A stretch of 33,227 nucleotides of DNA from an uncultured Bacilli bacterium (lineage in GTDB: Bacteria > Bacillota_I > Bacilli_A > RF39 > UBA660): NCBI GenBank assembly GCA_944363735.1, contig CALVVB010000009.1, positions 1-33,227 on the forward strand, in the 5' to 3' direction. Positions 3 to 32,575 of this stretch are shown one piece after another (within the stretch, counting starts at the first letter, position 1; each line of letters begins with the position of its first letter). Both the position numbers and the translations under genes were made by a program. The notes beneath the pieces were generated by a model. The model was given only the letters and a program-made list of their open reading frames with translations, was not told the DNA's origin and made no database searches.

Positions 3-611
3 TTTGGAAATGATGAAAATAATCTCTATAGAATAGTAAGTCATGAAAACGGAGTAGGTACAAAAATAGTCAGTGCCAAACCATTAAAGAGTTCTGGAAA
101 CTTTGTAACAAGTGATTTTGGAAGTAATATAACATTTTCTAATAGTAATACTATAGGAACATTTCTAAATGGAGACTATCTAACAAGTTATGTAGATAGT
201 GCATATAGTAATATGATAGAAGATAGTACTACATGGTATTTAGGAACAGTAGGATATGGAGCATCATATAAATTAGCCAAATATGCAGATACAAACATGA
301 GTAATTTAACTTCATCACAGGCAAATGCTAAAGTAGGATTATTAAGGTTTGGAGAATTAATGTCAGGTCAATTTGAAAGATATGGAGTTAAGGGAGAATT
401 TTCTAGTACTGGATTAACAACAACTTATTGGACATTAACCCCACTTAGTACGTATTACGTGCGTTGCGTCACCAACATCGGTAACGCGATCTACAGCAAT
501 CCGACCTTTGCTAACGGCGTCCGTCCATCAATAAATCTAAAATCTAACGTACAAATAACCTCAGGAACAGGGACTAAATCTGATCCTTTCCAAATAGAAC
601 TTGCTAGCTAA
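3..611 (+). CDS. C-terminal part of a secreted/surface protein with a DGR-like variable C-lectin-type end (5' end outside window)
   Basis: The frame is open from the first bases of the window, so this is the 3' part of a longer gene; an internal Met at 213 is not a credible start because homologous-looking sequence (YRIVSHENG, KIVSAKPLK) precedes it. Visible landmarks are VGLLRFGELMSGQ, YWTLTPLS and the closing block GVRPSINLKSNVQITSGTGT. This arrangement is typical of large exported proteins in low-GC gut Firmicutes, whose last domain resembles a formylglycine-generating-enzyme/C-type-lectin fold. The domain name and surface location are family knowledge and inference, because the signal peptide lies outside the window. 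Between about 444 and 527 the codon usage changes abruptly to C-, T- or G-ending codons (see the separate variable-region entry). It ends in TAA and is followed by a hairpin terminator. Confidence 0.8.
   Translation, partial: FGNDENNLYRIVSHENGVGTKIVSAKPLKSSGNFVTSDFGSNITFSNSNTIGTFLNGDYLTSYVDSAYSNMIEDSTTWYLGTVGYGASYKLAKYADTNMSNLTSSQANAKVGLLRFGELMSGQFERYGVKGEFSSTGLTTTYWTLTPLSTYYVRCVTNIGNAIYSNPTFANGVRPSINLKSNVQITSGTGTKSDPFQIELAS
441..530 (+). other. Candidate DGR variable region (VR) at the 3' end of the surface-protein gene
   Basis: By hand count, bases 444-527 hold 44 G/C in 84, far above the flanks. In the stretch 453-524 almost every codon ends in C or T (TAC, TGC, ACC, AAC, ATC, AAC, ATC, TAC, AGC, AAT, ACC, TTT, AAC, GTC), interspersed with fixed GC-rich codons (GTG CGT, GGT, GCG, CCG, GGC GTC CGT). 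Replacing the first two bases of the NNY codons by A would give runs of AAC/AAT (Asn), the usual template-repeat pattern of diversity-generating retroelements, where adenines are mutagenised. The encoded residues lie directly before GVRPS, the usual end of such a variable block. No template repeat or reverse transcriptase is in the window, so the DGR itself is inferred. Confidence 0.6.
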
Positions 612-2960: not shown

Positions 2961-3100
2961 GTATTTACAAAACAATATTTATTTGATATATTCTTATTGA
3001 CGTTTATGCTTAAAACTTAACTTTTAATTTAACTACATATTAATTTATGTGGGTTTTCTTCGTTTTCAAAGGACTTTACTAATTAGTGAGGAGGGATAAT

Positions 3101-5101
3101 GTGTCTATTAGTAAAGAAGAAATATTAAAAGAAAGGAAGAAATTACATGATGTTTTAGAGAGTCTTGATAAAGAGATTAAAGAGTCTAGTAGTGATTTGT
3201 TTCTAAAAGAAGAAGAACTTATTAATTTTAGAAAACTTAATTTCGAGGATAAATCATCTTTTGATAGTGCAGAGTTTAATCAAATAATGACTGCAGATAG
3301 CTTAGAAGCTTTAAGAGTGCTTAGTAAAAGAAAGTATTATAAATCTTTAGTTAATATTAAGGATAAACCTTATTTTGCCTCTTTCCTTTATAAAGATAAC
3401 GAAGGTAATAATTATAATATTTATATGGCTCTAACTTATTTAAAGAATAAAAACTATGATAATATTTTATATGATTGGCGTAGTCCTATTTGTAGTTTAT
3501 TTTATGATTATGAAGTAGGTCCTTGTAAATATAAAGTAGATGAATTTACTCATGAAGGTAATCTTTTAAAGAAAAGACAGTATATTATTGATGATAGAAA
3601 GCTTATTAGTGTTTTTGATAATTCTCTAAATATAGATGATGAACTATTACAAAAAGTAATCGCTACTACTGATAATGAAAAGATGAAAAATATTGTTAAT
3701 ACTATTCAGACAGAACAGAATAAGATAATTCGTAATTTAGATGATCATAATCTAATAGTTCAGGGTATCGCTGGTAGTGGTAAAACATCAGTAGCTTTAC
3801 ATCGTATCGCTTTCCTTTTATATCGTATTAAAAACTTAAGTTCTAATAATGTTTTAATTTTTTCTCCTAATAAGATATTTTCAGAATATATTTCTAATGT
3901 CTTACCAGAGTTAGGAGAAGCGAATACATTAGAGACAACTTTTAGTGATTATTTAAGTTACTTCTTAAAAGAGTATAAAAATATTGAGAGTTTTCCTCAC
4001 TTTATTAGTAAATATTATAAAGGCGATAAATATGATATAGAGATTATTAGATATAAACAAAGTAAAGAGATTATAAAAGATTTAGATAATTATATTAATG
4101 AGTTTTTAAAGAACTTTAAAGTTACTAGTGATATAGAACTTGATAAAATAAATGAAGTTAGTAAAGATGAGTTAAATTACTTAATTAAAGATAAATATAG
4201 TAGATTTCCTTTAGTTGAGAGAATTGATGAAGCATCTAAATATTTATCATTAAAGTATTATGGAACCCCTGGTAAGAGAAAGGCTTCTATTAGAAAGTTA
4301 ATTAAAGATAATATTAATGTGTCTTTAAATATTAAAGATATTTATAAAGATTTCTTCAATAGTAGTTATGCTAAATATAAATTAGATATTAAAAATACTA
4401 AAGTAATAGATTATGATGATGCCTTACTTGTATCTTACTTAAAAGGTAAACTCTTTGGATTTCCTTATAATAATTATATTAAACAAGTAGTTATAGATGA
4501 AGCGCAAGATTATAATTATCTACAATATGTTATTATTAAAGAGATGTTTAAGAAAGCTGACTTTACAATACTAGGTGATGTTAATCAGAATATTAATCCT
4601 TATTATAAATATGAAACTCTTGAAGAGTTAAAAGAGATATTTAATGATAGTAATTATTTAGAGTTATTAAAAACTTATAGATCTACGAAAGAAATAATAG
4701 AATATACTAATAAGATATTGAATTTAGATTATGTTAATGCAATTAAGAAGAGTAATAATAAAGATGTTCTTATTAGAAAACCTAAAGATATTAAGTTATC
4801 ACTACTTGATGATATAAAAACACTTACTAATACATATAAGTCACTTGCTATCATTACTAAAGAAGATAGAGAAGCAGAAGTTATCTATGACTTATTAAAA
4901 GATGATTTAAGTATTAGTTTGCTAACAGAAGAGTCTAAATCTTTTATTAAAGATTTAGTAGTAGTTCCAAGTTATATTGCTAAAGGTCTAGAGTTTGATA
5001 GTGTTATCATAGTAGATAGTGATGAGTCTTTTAAGAAGAATAAATATCTTTATTATGTCGCTTGTACAAGAGCAAAAGAGGAGCTTATTATTTATGAGTA
5101 A
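3101..5101 (+). CDS. helD: HelD-like RNA polymerase recycling motor ATPase (UvrD/Rep-type superfamily 1 helicase fold)
   Basis: About 666 residues. HelD binds RNA polymerase, inserts into its channels and frees stalled or post-termination enzyme using ATP. Seen here: an N-terminal charged coiled coil (first 70 residues), the HelD-specific block YDWRSPICSLFYDYE, QTEQNKIIRN before Walker A GIAGSGKTSVALHR (about 222-235), Walker B VIDEAQD (about 464-470), GDVNQNIN, LLKTYRST, VVPSYIAKGLEFDSV and YVACTRAKEEL near the end. A GTG at 3086 is in frame, but the GTG at 3101 lies 6-7 nt after GAGGAGG and is the better start. It overlaps the next gene by 8 nt. A second HelD paralogue lies at 29848. Confidence 0.9.
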   Translation: MSISKEEILKERKKLHDVLESLDKEIKESSSDLFLKEEELINFRKLNFEDKSSFDSAEFNQIMTADSLEALRVLSKRKYYKSLVNIKDKPYFASFLYKDNEGNNYNIYMALTYLKNKNYDNILYDWRSPICSLFYDYEVGPCKYKVDEFTHEGNLLKKRQYIIDDRKLISVFDNSLNIDDELLQKVIATTDNEKMKNIVNTIQTEQNKIIRNLDDHNLIVQGIAGSGKTSVALHRIAFLLYRIKNLSSNNVLIFSPNKIFSEYISNVLPELGEANTLETTFSDYLSYFLKEYKNIESFPHFISKYYKGDKYDIEIIRYKQSKEIIKDLDNYINEFLKNFKVTSDIELDKINEVSKDELNYLIKDKYSRFPLVERIDEASKYLSLKYYGTPGKRKASIRKLIKDNINVSLNIKDIYKDFFNSSYAKYKLDIKNTKVIDYDDALLVSYLKGKLFGFPYNNYIKQVVIDEAQDYNYLQYVIIKEMFKKADFTILGDVNQNINPYYKYETLEELKEIFNDSNYLELLKTYRSTKEIIEYTNKILNLDYVNAIKKSNNKDVLIRKPKDIKLSLLDDIKTLTNTYKSLAIITKEDREAEVIYDLLKDDLSISLLTEESKSFIKDLVVVPSYIAKGLEFDSVIIVDSDESFKKNKYLYYVACTRAKEELIIYE

Positions 5102-7666: not shown

Positions 7667-8664
7667 AATTAAGTACTTATTTAAAAGATAAACTATATGC
7701 CTTTTTAATCTTTATTATTTATATAATTATTTTAATATTATTCTTAATCGCTTTAAAACTATCTAGTAGTATCATTATCTTTATAATTGTTTTTACTATT
7801 GTTATCTTTTTTGTCATTTTATTTTTTGATTATTTTAGGAAAAGAAAATTTTATAATGAATTACTTGATAAATTAAATACTTTAGATAAAAAATATCTTT
7901 TAATAGAGATGGTTCTTGTTCCTAACTTTTTAGAAGGTAAGATACTTTATGATGTCTTAGATGAAGTTAATAAAAATGAACATGATTTGATTAGTAAACT
8001 AAAAAATAAACAAGAATACTTTAAAGAATATATAGAGTTATGGATACATGAAGTTAAACTTCCTCTTGCAAGTCTTACTTTAATTAATAGAAAAGATAAA
8101 AATACTTTAAGAGTATTAAAAGAGTTAGAAGATTATGTAGAACAAATTCTTTATTATGTAAGATGTGAAAATGCTAATAATGATTATTTAATTAAAGAAT
8201 GGGATTTAGATACTATTATTAAAAATGTAGCATTAAGAAATAAAGATGACTTACTTGCTTTAAATATAGACTTTAAAGTAGATAATTGTAATTTGAAAGT
8301 CTTAACAGATTCTAAATGGTTAGAGTTTATTATTAATCAGATTGTTAGTAATAGTATTAAATATAAAAAAGAAAAAGATTCTTTTATTGAAATAACTGGT
8401 AAAGACTATAAAAACTATGTTACTATTACTATCTATGATAATGGTAAAGGTATTAGTAAAAGTGATTTACTAAGAGTATTTAATAAGACTTTTACAGGTA
8501 GTAATGGAAGAAGTACTAGTTCTAAATCTACAGGTATGGGACTTTATTTATGTAGGGAGTTATGTGAAAAATTAGGGCATAAAATAGAGATTGATTCTAA
8601 AATAGATGAATATACTAAAGTTACTATTACAGTTTATAAGAAAGATTTTTATAATGTATCTTAG
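7663..8664 (+). CDS. BceS-like intramembrane-sensing histidine kinase
   Basis: A 333-residue kinase with two N-terminal membrane helices (about 11-32 and 35-57) and almost no extracellular loop, the mark of BceS-type kinases that sense through their ABC permease. The phosphorylated His is H129 in WIHEVKLPLASL. The ATPase domain has NQIVSNSIKY, DNGKGISKSDLLRVFNKTFTG and STGMGLYLCRELCEKLGH. It is translationally coupled to the response regulator. Normal length; nothing missing. Confidence 0.9.
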   Translation: MKLSTYLKDKLYAFLIFIIYIIILILFLIALKLSSSIIIFIIVFTIVIFFVILFFDYFRKRKFYNELLDKLNTLDKKYLLIEMVLVPNFLEGKILYDVLDEVNKNEHDLISKLKNKQEYFKEYIELWIHEVKLPLASLTLINRKDKNTLRVLKELEDYVEQILYYVRCENANNDYLIKEWDLDTIIKNVALRNKDDLLALNIDFKVDNCNLKVLTDSKWLEFIINQIVSNSIKYKKEKDSFIEITGKDYKNYVTITIYDNGKGISKSDLLRVFNKTFTGSNGRSTSSKSTGMGLYLCRELCEKLGHKIEIDSKIDEYTKVTITVYKKDFYNVS

Positions 8665-14177: not shown

Positions 14178-14669
14178 ATGGAGTATTGGGATTTATATGA
14201 TGAAAATAGAAGAAAACTGAATAAAACAGTTACCAGAGGATCAATGTTAAACGATAATGAGTTTCATTTGGTAGTAAATGTTTGGATTAAAAATAATAAT
14301 AATGAATTTTTAATAAGTAGAAGGGCAGAAAGTAAACCTCATCCTTTAATGTGGGAGACTACGGGTGGTTCTGTTTTACTTGGTGAAGAATCAATAGATG
14401 CAGCAGTTAGAGAAGCTAAAGAAGAGTTAGATGTTGATTTGGATAAATCAAAAAGTAAATTAATAGGTAGTGCAAAAAGATATTATAAAGGTTGCAATGA
14501 TATTCTTGATGTTTGGTTATTTGAAAGTAACGTTAGCTTAAATGATATTAAATTACAAAAAGAGGAAGTTTGTGATTGTTTATGGGCTAGTAGTGAAAAA
14601 ATTAGAGAATTATATAATAAAGGAGAATTTGATGCTAATCCATTTTTTGAATCTGTAATAATTAGATAA
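14178..14669 (+). CDS. Nudix hydrolase (isopentenyl-diphosphate-isomerase-like subgroup)
   Basis: A 163-residue Nudix protein. The opening MEYWDLYDENRRKLNKT and FHLVVNVWIKNNNNEFLISRR are typical of IDI-like Nudix proteins of Firmicutes. The Nudix box runs GSVLLGEESIDAAVREAKEELDV, with the usual Gly near its end replaced by Asp; the metal-binding REAKEE core is intact. These enzymes cleave X-linked nucleoside diphosphates or similar; the substrate here is unknown. The last codons, FFESVIIR, and their DNA match the end of the PPase-like genes at 16292 and 32575, which suggests a recombined 3' end. Confidence 0.85.
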   Translation: MEYWDLYDENRRKLNKTVTRGSMLNDNEFHLVVNVWIKNNNNEFLISRRAESKPHPLMWETTGGSVLLGEESIDAAVREAKEELDVDLDKSKSKLIGSAKRYYKGCNDILDVWLFESNVSLNDIKLQKEEVCDCLWASSEKIRELYNKGEFDANPFFESVIIR

Positions 14670-15897: not shown

Positions 15898-15947
15898 GTT
15901 GTGGTTATTAAAACAAGAATATATAATATTGTTAATAGGTGGTAATG

Positions 15948-16292
15948 ATGGAAAAAATTGATTCTAAAAATTTTATAGGTAAGGAAGTTAATATTGTTAT
16001 AGATAGAGCTTTAGGAACTAAACATCCTAAACATGGCTTTGTTTATACTGTTAATTATGGTTATGTACCTAATGTAATTAGTGGAGATGGAGAAGAGTTA
16101 GATGCTTATTTATTAGGAGTATTTGATCCAGTAGAAAATTATAAAGGTAAGTGCATTGCAGTTATTCATAGAACTAACGATGATGAAGATAAAATAATTG
16201 TAGTGCCAGAGGGTGTTAATTATACCGATGATCAAATAAAAACTTTAACTGAGTTTCAAGAAAGATTTTTTGAATCTGTAATTATAAGATAA
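15948..16292 (+). CDS. Inorganic-pyrophosphatase-like protein, copy 1
   Basis: A 114-residue protein resembling the core of soluble family I inorganic pyrophosphatase. Evidence is VNYGYVPNVISGDGEELDAYLLG, which corresponds to the NYGxxPxT...DGDxLDxL active-site block, and AVIHRTNDDEDKIIVVP for the later acidic block. It is much shorter than canonical PPases (about 175 aa), so activity may differ. I choose ATG 15948 because the paralogue at 32231 begins there and identity stops immediately upstream. The SD is AGGTGG. It differs from copy 2 by about six bases, all after position 16186. Confidence 0.8.
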   Translation: MEKIDSKNFIGKEVNIVIDRALGTKHPKHGFVYTVNYGYVPNVISGDGEELDAYLLGVFDPVENYKGKCIAVIHRTNDDEDKIIVVPEGVNYTDDQIKTLTEFQERFFESVIIR

Positions 16293-29847: not shown

Positions 29848-32052
29848 ATGACAAAAGAAGAAATATTTATATATGAAAAAAATAGGTTAGATAACGTAAT
29901 AGATATAATAAATAGACAAATCAAAGAAGCTGAAAAAAAATTTAATAATCAAGAGCATACAATTATTGGTTTTAAAGAAGGACAAAGAGGTACACAATTT
30001 ATTAGACAAGGGTTAATGTCTTTATATGCTACTGAAATAAATAATCTTAAGTCAGTATTAGCTAACCCTTATTTTGGAATGTTTCAATTTAAAGATAATA
30101 ATAATGAGACTACTGATATATATTTAGGAAAAAAAGCAATATTGGATGAAAATGCTAATGTTATTGCATATGATTGGAGAAGTCCAGTATGTTCAATGTA
30201 TTATGATTATAATATTGGTAAAGCAGAATATATTGGTACTAATGGAGTTAAAAATTTTGGTGAAATATTGAAAAAAAGACAAATAATAATAAAAAATGGG
30301 GAATTACAAGATGTAGAAGAGCAAGATACTTTATCTAATGATAGTATTTTATTAAAATATTTAACTGAAAACTCAGATGCACGTTTAAAGTCCATTATTG
30401 CTACAATTCAAAGAGAACAAAATCATATAATAAGAAGTCCATTAAAGAGTGATTATATTGTTCAAGGAACGGCAGGAAGTGGAAAAACTACAGTAGCATT
30501 ACATAGAATAGCATATCTACTATATAATGAAGCTAAAAGCATAAATGAATCTGATTTTATGATAATAGGTCCTAATAAATATTTCTTAAATTATGTATCT
30601 GATCTTTTGCCTGATTTAGATATAAAAAATGTCTCTCAATTTACATTTGATGAGATAGCTTTAAAAAATATAGGAGTATCTAAGATTAAAGTAGAAAGTA
30701 TGAATAAGACTTTGCAAGGAATATTAAGAGAAGAGATAGATGAAAATATAATTGCTTTCAAATCTTCAATTGAATTTTTAAAGTTAATTGAAAATTATAT
30801 TAATTTATATATTGATTCTCATTTTATAGATGATATTGTATATGAAGGAATTAAACTTTATAGTGCAGAAGATATAAGACTTAATTTTAATAATAATATG
30901 TTTGGAAACGATAAAAGTTGTAAAGAAAAGGCTAATGAACTTATTAAGAGATTAACAAAAAAAATTAAGAATAATTCTGAGGATTTATCTTATGGTATAT
31001 GGTTAAAATATAGAGATGAGATTTTAAATTTATCTCAAGATGATCCAAAAAGAAAAGAAATTTTAGAGAAAGTTAATAAAGCTCAAGCTGAAATAAAGAA
31101 AGGTTGTCCAACTGTTGTTAAAGAATATTTTAAGTTTTTGAAGGTGAATCCTTTAGCTTTATATCAGACATTTATAGAAAATTTAGATACAATTTATCCT
31201 AATGAAATGTTTGATATTAAGAGATTACAGGAATATACAAATTTAAATCTTTCTAAAAAACAAGCTAAATTTGAAGATTTAGCTCCCTTATTATTAATTA
31301 ATTATATGATAAATGGTGTAAAAGATTTTAAAGAGTATTCGTATTTAGTCATAGATGAGGCACAAGATTTAAGCTTGGCAGAATACTATATGTTAAAGAA
31401 ATTGTTTCCTAAAGCAAAATTTAATGTATTTGGTGATGTAAATCAATCTATTTATAATTATCAATCAATTCATAATTGGGATGAATTAAATAGTCTTATA
31501 TTCGATTCTAAAGCTAATAAATTAGAACTGAATAAAAGTTATCGTACAACAGTTAATATTTCTAATGTCTCAAATTTAATATTAAGACAAATGAGTCAAG
31601 AACATGCTGAATGTATAGCAAGAACTGGTGATGAATTATTATTAAGCAATGATATTTCATGCCAAAATATTATTCTTCAAATTAAAACGTTGCTGGATAA
31701 AGAATATCAATCTATCGCAATCATTTGTAAAGATGATAAAGAAACACATGATATATATAGTAAATTGAAAAAGATGAGATTAAATATATCTGAAATTACC
31801 GAAAACAATGAACAGTATAATGGAGGATTGTGTATCATGCCATCATATTTATCAAAAGGGCTAGAGTTTGATGCTATAATTATTTATAATGCAAATGCTA
31901 AAAATTATTCTTCAACAAATATAGATATGAAACTTTTATATGCTGCAACTACAAGAGCAATGCATGATTTAGTTATAAATTATGATGGTGAATTATCTTT
32001 ACCATTAAAATCATTAGAAAAGAAAAATAAAGTATTAAAAAAAGTTAAGTAA
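29848..32052 (+). CDS. helD: HelD-like RNA polymerase recycling ATPase, second paralogue
   Basis: A 734-residue SF1-type ATPase. It has the N-terminal coiled coil (first 50 residues), YDWRSPVCSMYYDYNIG, Walker A GTAGSGKTTVALHR (about 207-220), Walker B VIDEAQDLSLAEYY (about 501-514), GDVNQSIYNYQSI, LNKSYRTTVNIS, MPSYLSKGLEFDAI and LLYAATTRAMHDL. It is longer than, and clearly diverged from, the copy at 3101, so it is not a recent duplicate. The SD is AAAGGAAA, 22 nt after the HAD stop. Paralogues that differ in this way can protect polymerase from specific inhibitors, as shown for HelR in other bacteria; not demonstrated here. Confidence 0.9.
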   Translation: MTKEEIFIYEKNRLDNVIDIINRQIKEAEKKFNNQEHTIIGFKEGQRGTQFIRQGLMSLYATEINNLKSVLANPYFGMFQFKDNNNETTDIYLGKKAILDENANVIAYDWRSPVCSMYYDYNIGKAEYIGTNGVKNFGEILKKRQIIIKNGELQDVEEQDTLSNDSILLKYLTENSDARLKSIIATIQREQNHIIRSPLKSDYIVQGTAGSGKTTVALHRIAYLLYNEAKSINESDFMIIGPNKYFLNYVSDLLPDLDIKNVSQFTFDEIALKNIGVSKIKVESMNKTLQGILREEIDENIIAFKSSIEFLKLIENYINLYIDSHFIDDIVYEGIKLYSAEDIRLNFNNNMFGNDKSCKEKANELIKRLTKKIKNNSEDLSYGIWLKYRDEILNLSQDDPKRKEILEKVNKAQAEIKKGCPTVVKEYFKFLKVNPLALYQTFIENLDTIYPNEMFDIKRLQEYTNLNLSKKQAKFEDLAPLLLINYMINGVKDFKEYSYLVIDEAQDLSLAEYYMLKKLFPKAKFNVFGDVNQSIYNYQSIHNWDELNSLIFDSKANKLELNKSYRTTVNISNVSNLILRQMSQEHAECIARTGDELLLSNDISCQNIILQIKTLLDKEYQSIAIICKDDKETHDIYSKLKKMRLNISEITENNEQYNGGLCIMPSYLSKGLEFDAIIIYNANAKNYSSTNIDMKLLYAATTRAMHDLVINYDGELSLPLKSLEKKNKVLKKVK

Positions 32053-32230: not shown

Positions 32231-32575
32231 ATGGAAAAAATTGATTCTAAAAATTTTATAGGTAAGGAAGTTAATATTGTTATAGATAGAGCTTTAGGAA
32301 CTAAACATCCTAAACATGGCTTTGTTTATACTGTTAATTATGGTTATGTACCTAATGTAATTAGTGGAGATGGAGAAGAGTTAGATGCTTATTTATTAGG
32401 AGTATTTGATCCAGTAGAAAATTATAAAGGTAAGTGCATTGCAGTTATTCATAGAACTAACGATGATGATGATAAAATAATTGTAGTGCCAGAGGGTGTT
32501 AATTATACTGATGATCAAATAAAAGCTTTAACAGAGTTCCAAGAGAGATTTTTTGAATCTGTAATTATAAGATAA
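32231..32575 (+). CDS. Inorganic-pyrophosphatase-like protein, copy 2
   Basis: The same 114-residue protein as at 15948, with only two amino-acid differences (Glu to Asp in NDDDDK; Lys to Ala in QIKAL). The first 239 nt are identical; about six substitutions fall in the last third. The match begins at the ATG and ends at the stop codon, with unrelated flanks, so this copy has its own SD (AAAGGAGA), leader and terminator. As a same-strand repeat of copy 1, it could support recombination that deletes or amplifies the 16.3 kb between them. Confidence 0.8.
   Translation: MEKIDSKNFIGKEVNIVIDRALGTKHPKHGFVYTVNYGYVPNVISGDGEELDAYLLGVFDPVENYKGKCIAVIHRTNDDDDKIIVVPEGVNYTDDQIKALTEFQERFFESVIIR

Follow-up and report, generated by a model that had tools for sequence, protein, structure and literature searches.

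The diversity-generating retroelement (DGR) of Bordetella phage BPP-1 comprises a reverse transcriptase (RT), the Avd protein, a template repeat (TR) and a C-type-lectin-like domain that carries the variable region (VR). Among cellular systems, the TvpA-family DGR of Treponema denticola combines one RT/TR core with several remote surface targets (PMC4891356), and Thiohalocapsa PB-PSB1 contains several DGR loci with multi-VR targets, diversification in trans, incomplete loci and locus duplication by mobile elements (PMC10907252). In DGR targets of Faecalibacterium prophages and tentaclins, DUF6273 carries the VR at its C-terminus (PMC11792537), and modelling gave a C-lectin fold for this domain in a published DGR target (PMC10743442). 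DUF6273 targets as well as remote and orphan VRs are already published. Since this also holds for multi-VR proteins and action in trans, the locus described here represents a known kind of system (PMC4891356; PMC10907252; PMC3521204). We found no DGR report for its lineage in the literature searched, an absence that is weak evidence.

A hypervariable tip on a DUF6273 protein

The window, i.e. the whole stretch of 33,227 nucleotides that was analysed, is the entire contig C9 of a 1.25 Mb assembly (G000; 72 contigs, estimated 94% complete). Based on our data, we are confident that positions 444-524 form a true VR belonging to a cellular DGR, probably written from a template by an RT-Avd complex whose genes lie on another contig. 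The gene and its parts are as follows:

3-611, + strand: DGR target gene, 3' part only; 202 aa with a DUF6273 domain, frame open to the contig start
344-440, + strand: segment 5' of the VR; differs from the sister genome G007 at 10 of 97 bases
444-524, + strand: VR of the TR2 family, 27 codons; its pattern of fixed and variable codons is common to sibling VRs
525-545, + strand: kept 3' flank of the VR (CCA TCA ATA AAT CTA AAA TCT); the same in other VRs, whereas TRs are followed by other sequence

As the contig begins inside the gene, the target is 5'-truncated. The VR stands out by composition alone: the GC content of 441-530 is 0.52, compared to a mean of 0.248 (sd 0.050) over all 90-mers of the window, and the only six 90-mers of the 33 kb that reach 0.52 all start between 436 and 441. 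The remaining gene has a GC content of 0.30 before and 0.33 after the block. Within the block, 23 of 30 codons end in C or T (66 of 145 upstream) and 18 of 30 in C or G (17 of 145 upstream). The first-pass annotation, made from the letters alone, had described this GC-rich stretch of C/T-ending codons as the very end of the gene; the composition is as described, but about 26 codons follow before the gene ends. Its reading of the codons was right: the variable ones reduce to template codons of the AAC/AAT type, and the fixed ones (GTG CGT, GTC, GCG, CCG and GGC GTC CGT CCA) recur in other VRs of the same genome. The TR-homologous part covers about 444-524, with 441-443 and 525-530 as conserved flank. 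Because VR/TR homology stops just 5' of the kept 3' flank, where TRs read CATTTCC instead, a candidate initiation-of-homing (IMH) boundary may be placed at about 516-527, by analogy with other DGRs.

The DUF6273 match of the window protein lies just above the cut-off (Pfam, 4e-5). Its closest paralogue (82% identical), encoded on contig C50, is a full-length target of 529 aa that has two VR units. Complete siblings carry two DUF6273-like units after an N-terminal anchor or signal peptide, and attachment is predicted from sequence to rely either on an N-terminal membrane anchor (C63) or on a signal peptide combined with a C-terminal anchor (C50). The C50 domain, which is 82% identical to the window domain, was modelled with AF2 at a mean pLDDT of 82, with about 83-97 in the VR region. 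Structural matches of this model include phage DUF6273 proteins (E to 5e-8); in the PDB, a single match is strong (9qa6, 1e-5) and those to C-type lectins are weak. An earlier AlphaFold model with close relatives as the only input was discarded (pLDDT 41). We take the DUF6273 domain to be displayed on the cell surface, where it would bind a variable ligand.

Contig C50 also contains an exact direct repeat of 781 bases (1458-2238 and 3596-4376 of L037, 2,138 bases apart), which spans the end of a XerC-like gene and the start of the target gene and reflects either a tandem duplication of the target gene with its two VRs or an artefact of the assembly graph. The window itself holds further repeated genes. 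Two HelD/UvrD-like helicase paralogues are found within the 33 kb (3086-5101 and 29848-32052), and two nearly identical pyrophosphatase-like ORFs lie 16 kb apart (15939-16292 and 32231-32575). As both of the latter and a NUDIX-like ORF (14178-14669) end in FFESVIIR, a repeated 3' segment may exist around these three ORFs.

One apparently intact DGR and a second VR family

The genome encodes two RTs, on C21 and C63. The C21 RT carries PQGGLISP, a QG..SP motif of the group II intron type. The C63 RT (313 aa) shows IGNYTSQ (residue 199) and YMDD (residue 231); (I/V/L)GxxxSQ in region 4 marks DGR-clade RTs, and DiGReF found this kind of motif in 90% of DGR RTs (PMC3521204). The protein matches phrog_1423 at 5.5e-70. 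Its best PDB match is 8ub7 (1.3e-18), from a series that we take to be the BPP-1 RT. MAGs labelled Bacilli, Tenericutes and Candidatus Onthousia contain relatives of this RT (84-94% identity) and, on the basis of these labels, the genome appears to belong to Candidatus Onthousia-like Bacilli.

An Avd-like ORF of 114 aa overlaps the RT start and matches phrog_3206 ("Avd protein of DGR", 2e-5); its matches to Pfam bAvd (0.009) and NCBIfam Avd (0.012) are both below the curated cut-offs. The order on C63 is a membrane-anchored target of 624 aa, TR1, an ORF of 112 aa, the Avd-like ORF and then the RT, with two elements in between the known genes:

L035 4906-4826, - strand: TR1, non-coding, between the target gene and the accessory ORFs
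L035 4236-4574, - strand: 112-aa ORF between TR1 and the Avd-like ORF, a candidate DGR accessory

Profile searches gave no family match for the 112-aa ORF, which is possibly a new DGR accessory protein, and Rfam no RNA family in the window or in the C63 locus. The 624-aa target has two DUF6273 units with one VR each, and both VRs differ from TR1 in an adenine-specific manner (12/27 A vs 3/51 non-A sites, p=9e-5; 14/27 A vs 3/51 non-A sites, p=7e-6). The C63 DGR is apparently intact.

The first-pass annotation had placed template and RT of the window VR elsewhere in the genome and had proposed a search for a copy that differs only by adenines and lies next to an RT. The DGR RT, the Avd-like gene and TR1 on C63 bear out the first part; TR1, however, was ruled out as template of the window VR, with mismatches at 12 of 27 A and also at 13 of 51 non-A sites. 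Its suggestion of several dispersed targets agrees with the distribution of the VRs, as the template family of the window VR also occurs on C50 and C20. Altogether, this family has four VRs on three contigs (the window, C20 and two on C50) and another four in the sister genome (two on C2, one each on C60 and C59). A further target of the family is probable on C33, which ends exactly inside a VR (7831-7856, L194; GGCGTCCGTCCATC...), a breakage that fits population variability or repeats. The common template, TR2, was reconstructed from sibling VRs together with close TRs of other species and would read AGTACGTCTAACGTGCGTAACGTC...CCGACCAATGCTAACGGCGTCCGT, with CATTTCC as the expected TR continuation.

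The template signature of the window VR was assessed in two ways. In a leave-one-out comparison, with columns taken from the siblings and both the window VR and its ortholog left out, 12 of the 29 A-containing columns have another base in the window VR, compared to a changed base in 1 of the 45 columns with an invariant non-A base (p=2e-5); as the A-containing columns are mostly variable by construction, what this establishes is that the variable positions of the window VR coincide with those of its siblings. The adenine claim is instead carried by independent TRs from other species: against the nearest real TR (G040), 11 of 26 A sites are mismatched vs 9 of 55 non-A sites (p=0.01). These nine non-A mismatches with even the closest TR, like the 13 with TR1 and the missing TR2, count against the DGR reading of the window VR.

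When the inferred TR2 plus flanks was used as query against all 35 genomes of the genus, it retrieved relatives of this template and no exact copy, neither in this genome, where the query found only VRs and TR1, nor in the sister genome or elsewhere in the genus. The intact TRs are 92% (G040), 90% (G042), 88% (G017) and 87% (G019) identical to the inferred TR2, and the upper two adjoin DGR RTs (L082 in G040, L079 in G042). Viral contigs contained no match to the TR2-like core or to the VR 3' end. That inferred templates can be real follows from two orphan VRs of G022, which fit the TR of G042 with 2 and 3 non-A mismatches. TR2 may be unassembled, since contigs in this genus tend to be interrupted at VRs and TRs: C9 itself begins inside the target gene, C33 ends inside a VR, C10 of the sister genome starts inside one, and the ends of its C57 and C29 lie around a TR.

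Cassettes also decay, as seen from two truncated TRs of the sister genome that directly follow targets and have lost RT and Avd (C2, L187, about 1780-1860; C10, L188, 179-250). At C10, the next gene (a 301-aa ORF) is the gene that follows the RT on C63 in our genome, which indicates that a cassette was deleted there.

Divergence from the sister genome and competing explanations

Contig C59 of the sister genome is the orthologous locus, collinear over 2.66 kb and with a 100% identical UV-endonuclease-like neighbour (function predicted from sequence). The two VRs differ at 24 of 90 bases, with 15 codons changed nonsynonymously and one synonymously, compared to 10 differences in about 2,700 bases downstream (0.4%; Fisher vs VR p=6e-30) and no change at all from 514 to 809. 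The VR is therefore hypervariable between the two sister genomes; the first-pass annotation had proposed a comparison of this kind across strains. Mapped on the G040 TR, these 24 differences fall on 14 of 26 A and 10 of 55 non-A sites (p=0.0015), and the ten at non-A sites imply that drift, another template or gene conversion contributed.

As for the mechanism, the RT-Avd complex encoded elsewhere would reverse-transcribe an RNA copy of the template repeat, random bases would be incorporated opposite template adenines, and the mutated cDNA would then take the place of the VR. In this way, the predicted binding face could be randomised at about 15 codons, with no loss of frame or fixed codons. 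TR2 would have served several dispersed genes, leaving its signature on four VRs on three contigs, and the C63 RT or a sibling copy probably acts, or acted, on the window VR via a TR2 RNA missing from the assembly.

Within this DGR reading it is possible, if somewhat doubtful, that the VR is a fossil, i.e. that the TR2 cassette was lost or replaced by the TR1 cassette and that only ordinary mutation has followed. The absence of TR2 from the assembly and the RT-less truncated TRs on C2 and C10 of the sister genome would fit such a loss, as would the observation that VR families often match TRs intact only in other species, such as the G022 VRs and the G042 TR; a like situation is described for Treponema denticola (PMC4891356). 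However, the VR has changed strongly since the split from the sister genome next to a flank that hardly diverged, its invariant non-A columns are still clean, and the missing template may simply have fallen into one of the contig breaks at VR/TR repeats.

Explanations without any reverse transcription fare much worse. Ordinary gene conversion or recombination among DUF6273 paralogues could shuffle the tips, and paralogues are abundant. Besides, 95 of the 97 bases just 5' of the VR in the sister genome are identical to its own C2 paralogue; as this segment is nearest to another paralogue of that genome, gene conversion, or else a contig-end artefact, likely extends up to the VR there. Nevertheless, no VR copies another, each being unique with 16 of 84 differences in the nearest pair, the changes cluster at template-A positions, and the genome contains an apparently intact DGR, so that we regard shuffling as very improbable as the source of the variation. 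Even harder to believe is an assembly or binning artefact in which a foreign GC-rich block was joined to an AT-rich contig. The window is indeed a MAG contig that starts inside a gene, but the block is in frame and is followed by a conserved C-terminus and a neighbour gene identical in the sister genome, whose independent assembly of the locus contradicts this explanation, and the same architecture occurs in many genomes of the genus.

Possible template turnover and relation to known systems

Beyond the single locus, a genus-wide system of multi-template surface variation is conceivable, though unlikely in its full form: in each genome, many DUF6273 proteins, often with two VRs apiece, would belong to several TR families, whole TR-RT cassettes would be lost, truncated or interrupted by a TR-inserting element with three tyrosine recombinases, and orphan targets would be re-activated once a matching cassette arrives. 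In this context, the perfect palindrome TTATAAGACATGTCTTATAA occurs once each in 7 of the 35 genomes, always at the same TR base and after GGCAACGCGAA-like sequence (L231, L232, L233, L234, L235, L236 and L237 in G046, G022, G016, G013, G047, G012 and G011, respectively), and nowhere else in these seven genomes, allowing up to one mismatch. At L081:427-3823, the palindrome opens an insert of 3.4 kb that encodes three tyrosine recombinases in a row; the TR continues beyond it. This insert looks like a recombinase-in-trio (RIT-like) mobile element that uses the DGR template as its site; possibly, a single ancient insertion was inherited with the cassettes instead of repeated TR-specific targeting. 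If true, a mobile element repeatedly found in the TR would be a natural off-switch for DGRs.

The window illustrates that DNA sequence by itself can reveal a hypermutated tip while its template is out of view, and that such a tip can then be tested. It also places a cell-encoded, multi-target DGR in a little-known gut lineage with small genomes, where the dispersed VR families make template gain, replacement and decay readable within one genus.

The set of RT, Avd or Avd-like protein, TR and a VR domain that is putatively C-type-lectin-like here is common to this DGR and that of BPP-1, and the RT matches the 8ub7 series; unlike here, BPP-1 diversifies a single target in cis with a host-tropism role in a phage. 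With the gut phage targets of Faecalibacterium prophages and tentaclins, it shares the VR at the C-terminus of DUF6273, a domain for which a published model is C-type-lectin-like (PMC11792537; PMC10743442), and the C50 model matches phage proteins with this domain. In contrast to these, the gene is chromosomal, complete siblings have a membrane anchor or signal peptide, and no phage genes were noticed around the window gene. The targets of Thiohalocapsa PB-PSB1 are putative conflict-system sensors, whereas those found here are membrane-anchored DUF6273 proteins. Treponema denticola likewise has a cellular DGR with remote targets and VRs whose closest TR type exists only in other isolates (PMC4891356); the system described here differs from it in the DUF6273 fold family, in often having two VR units per protein, in its phylum and in the several TR families within one genus.
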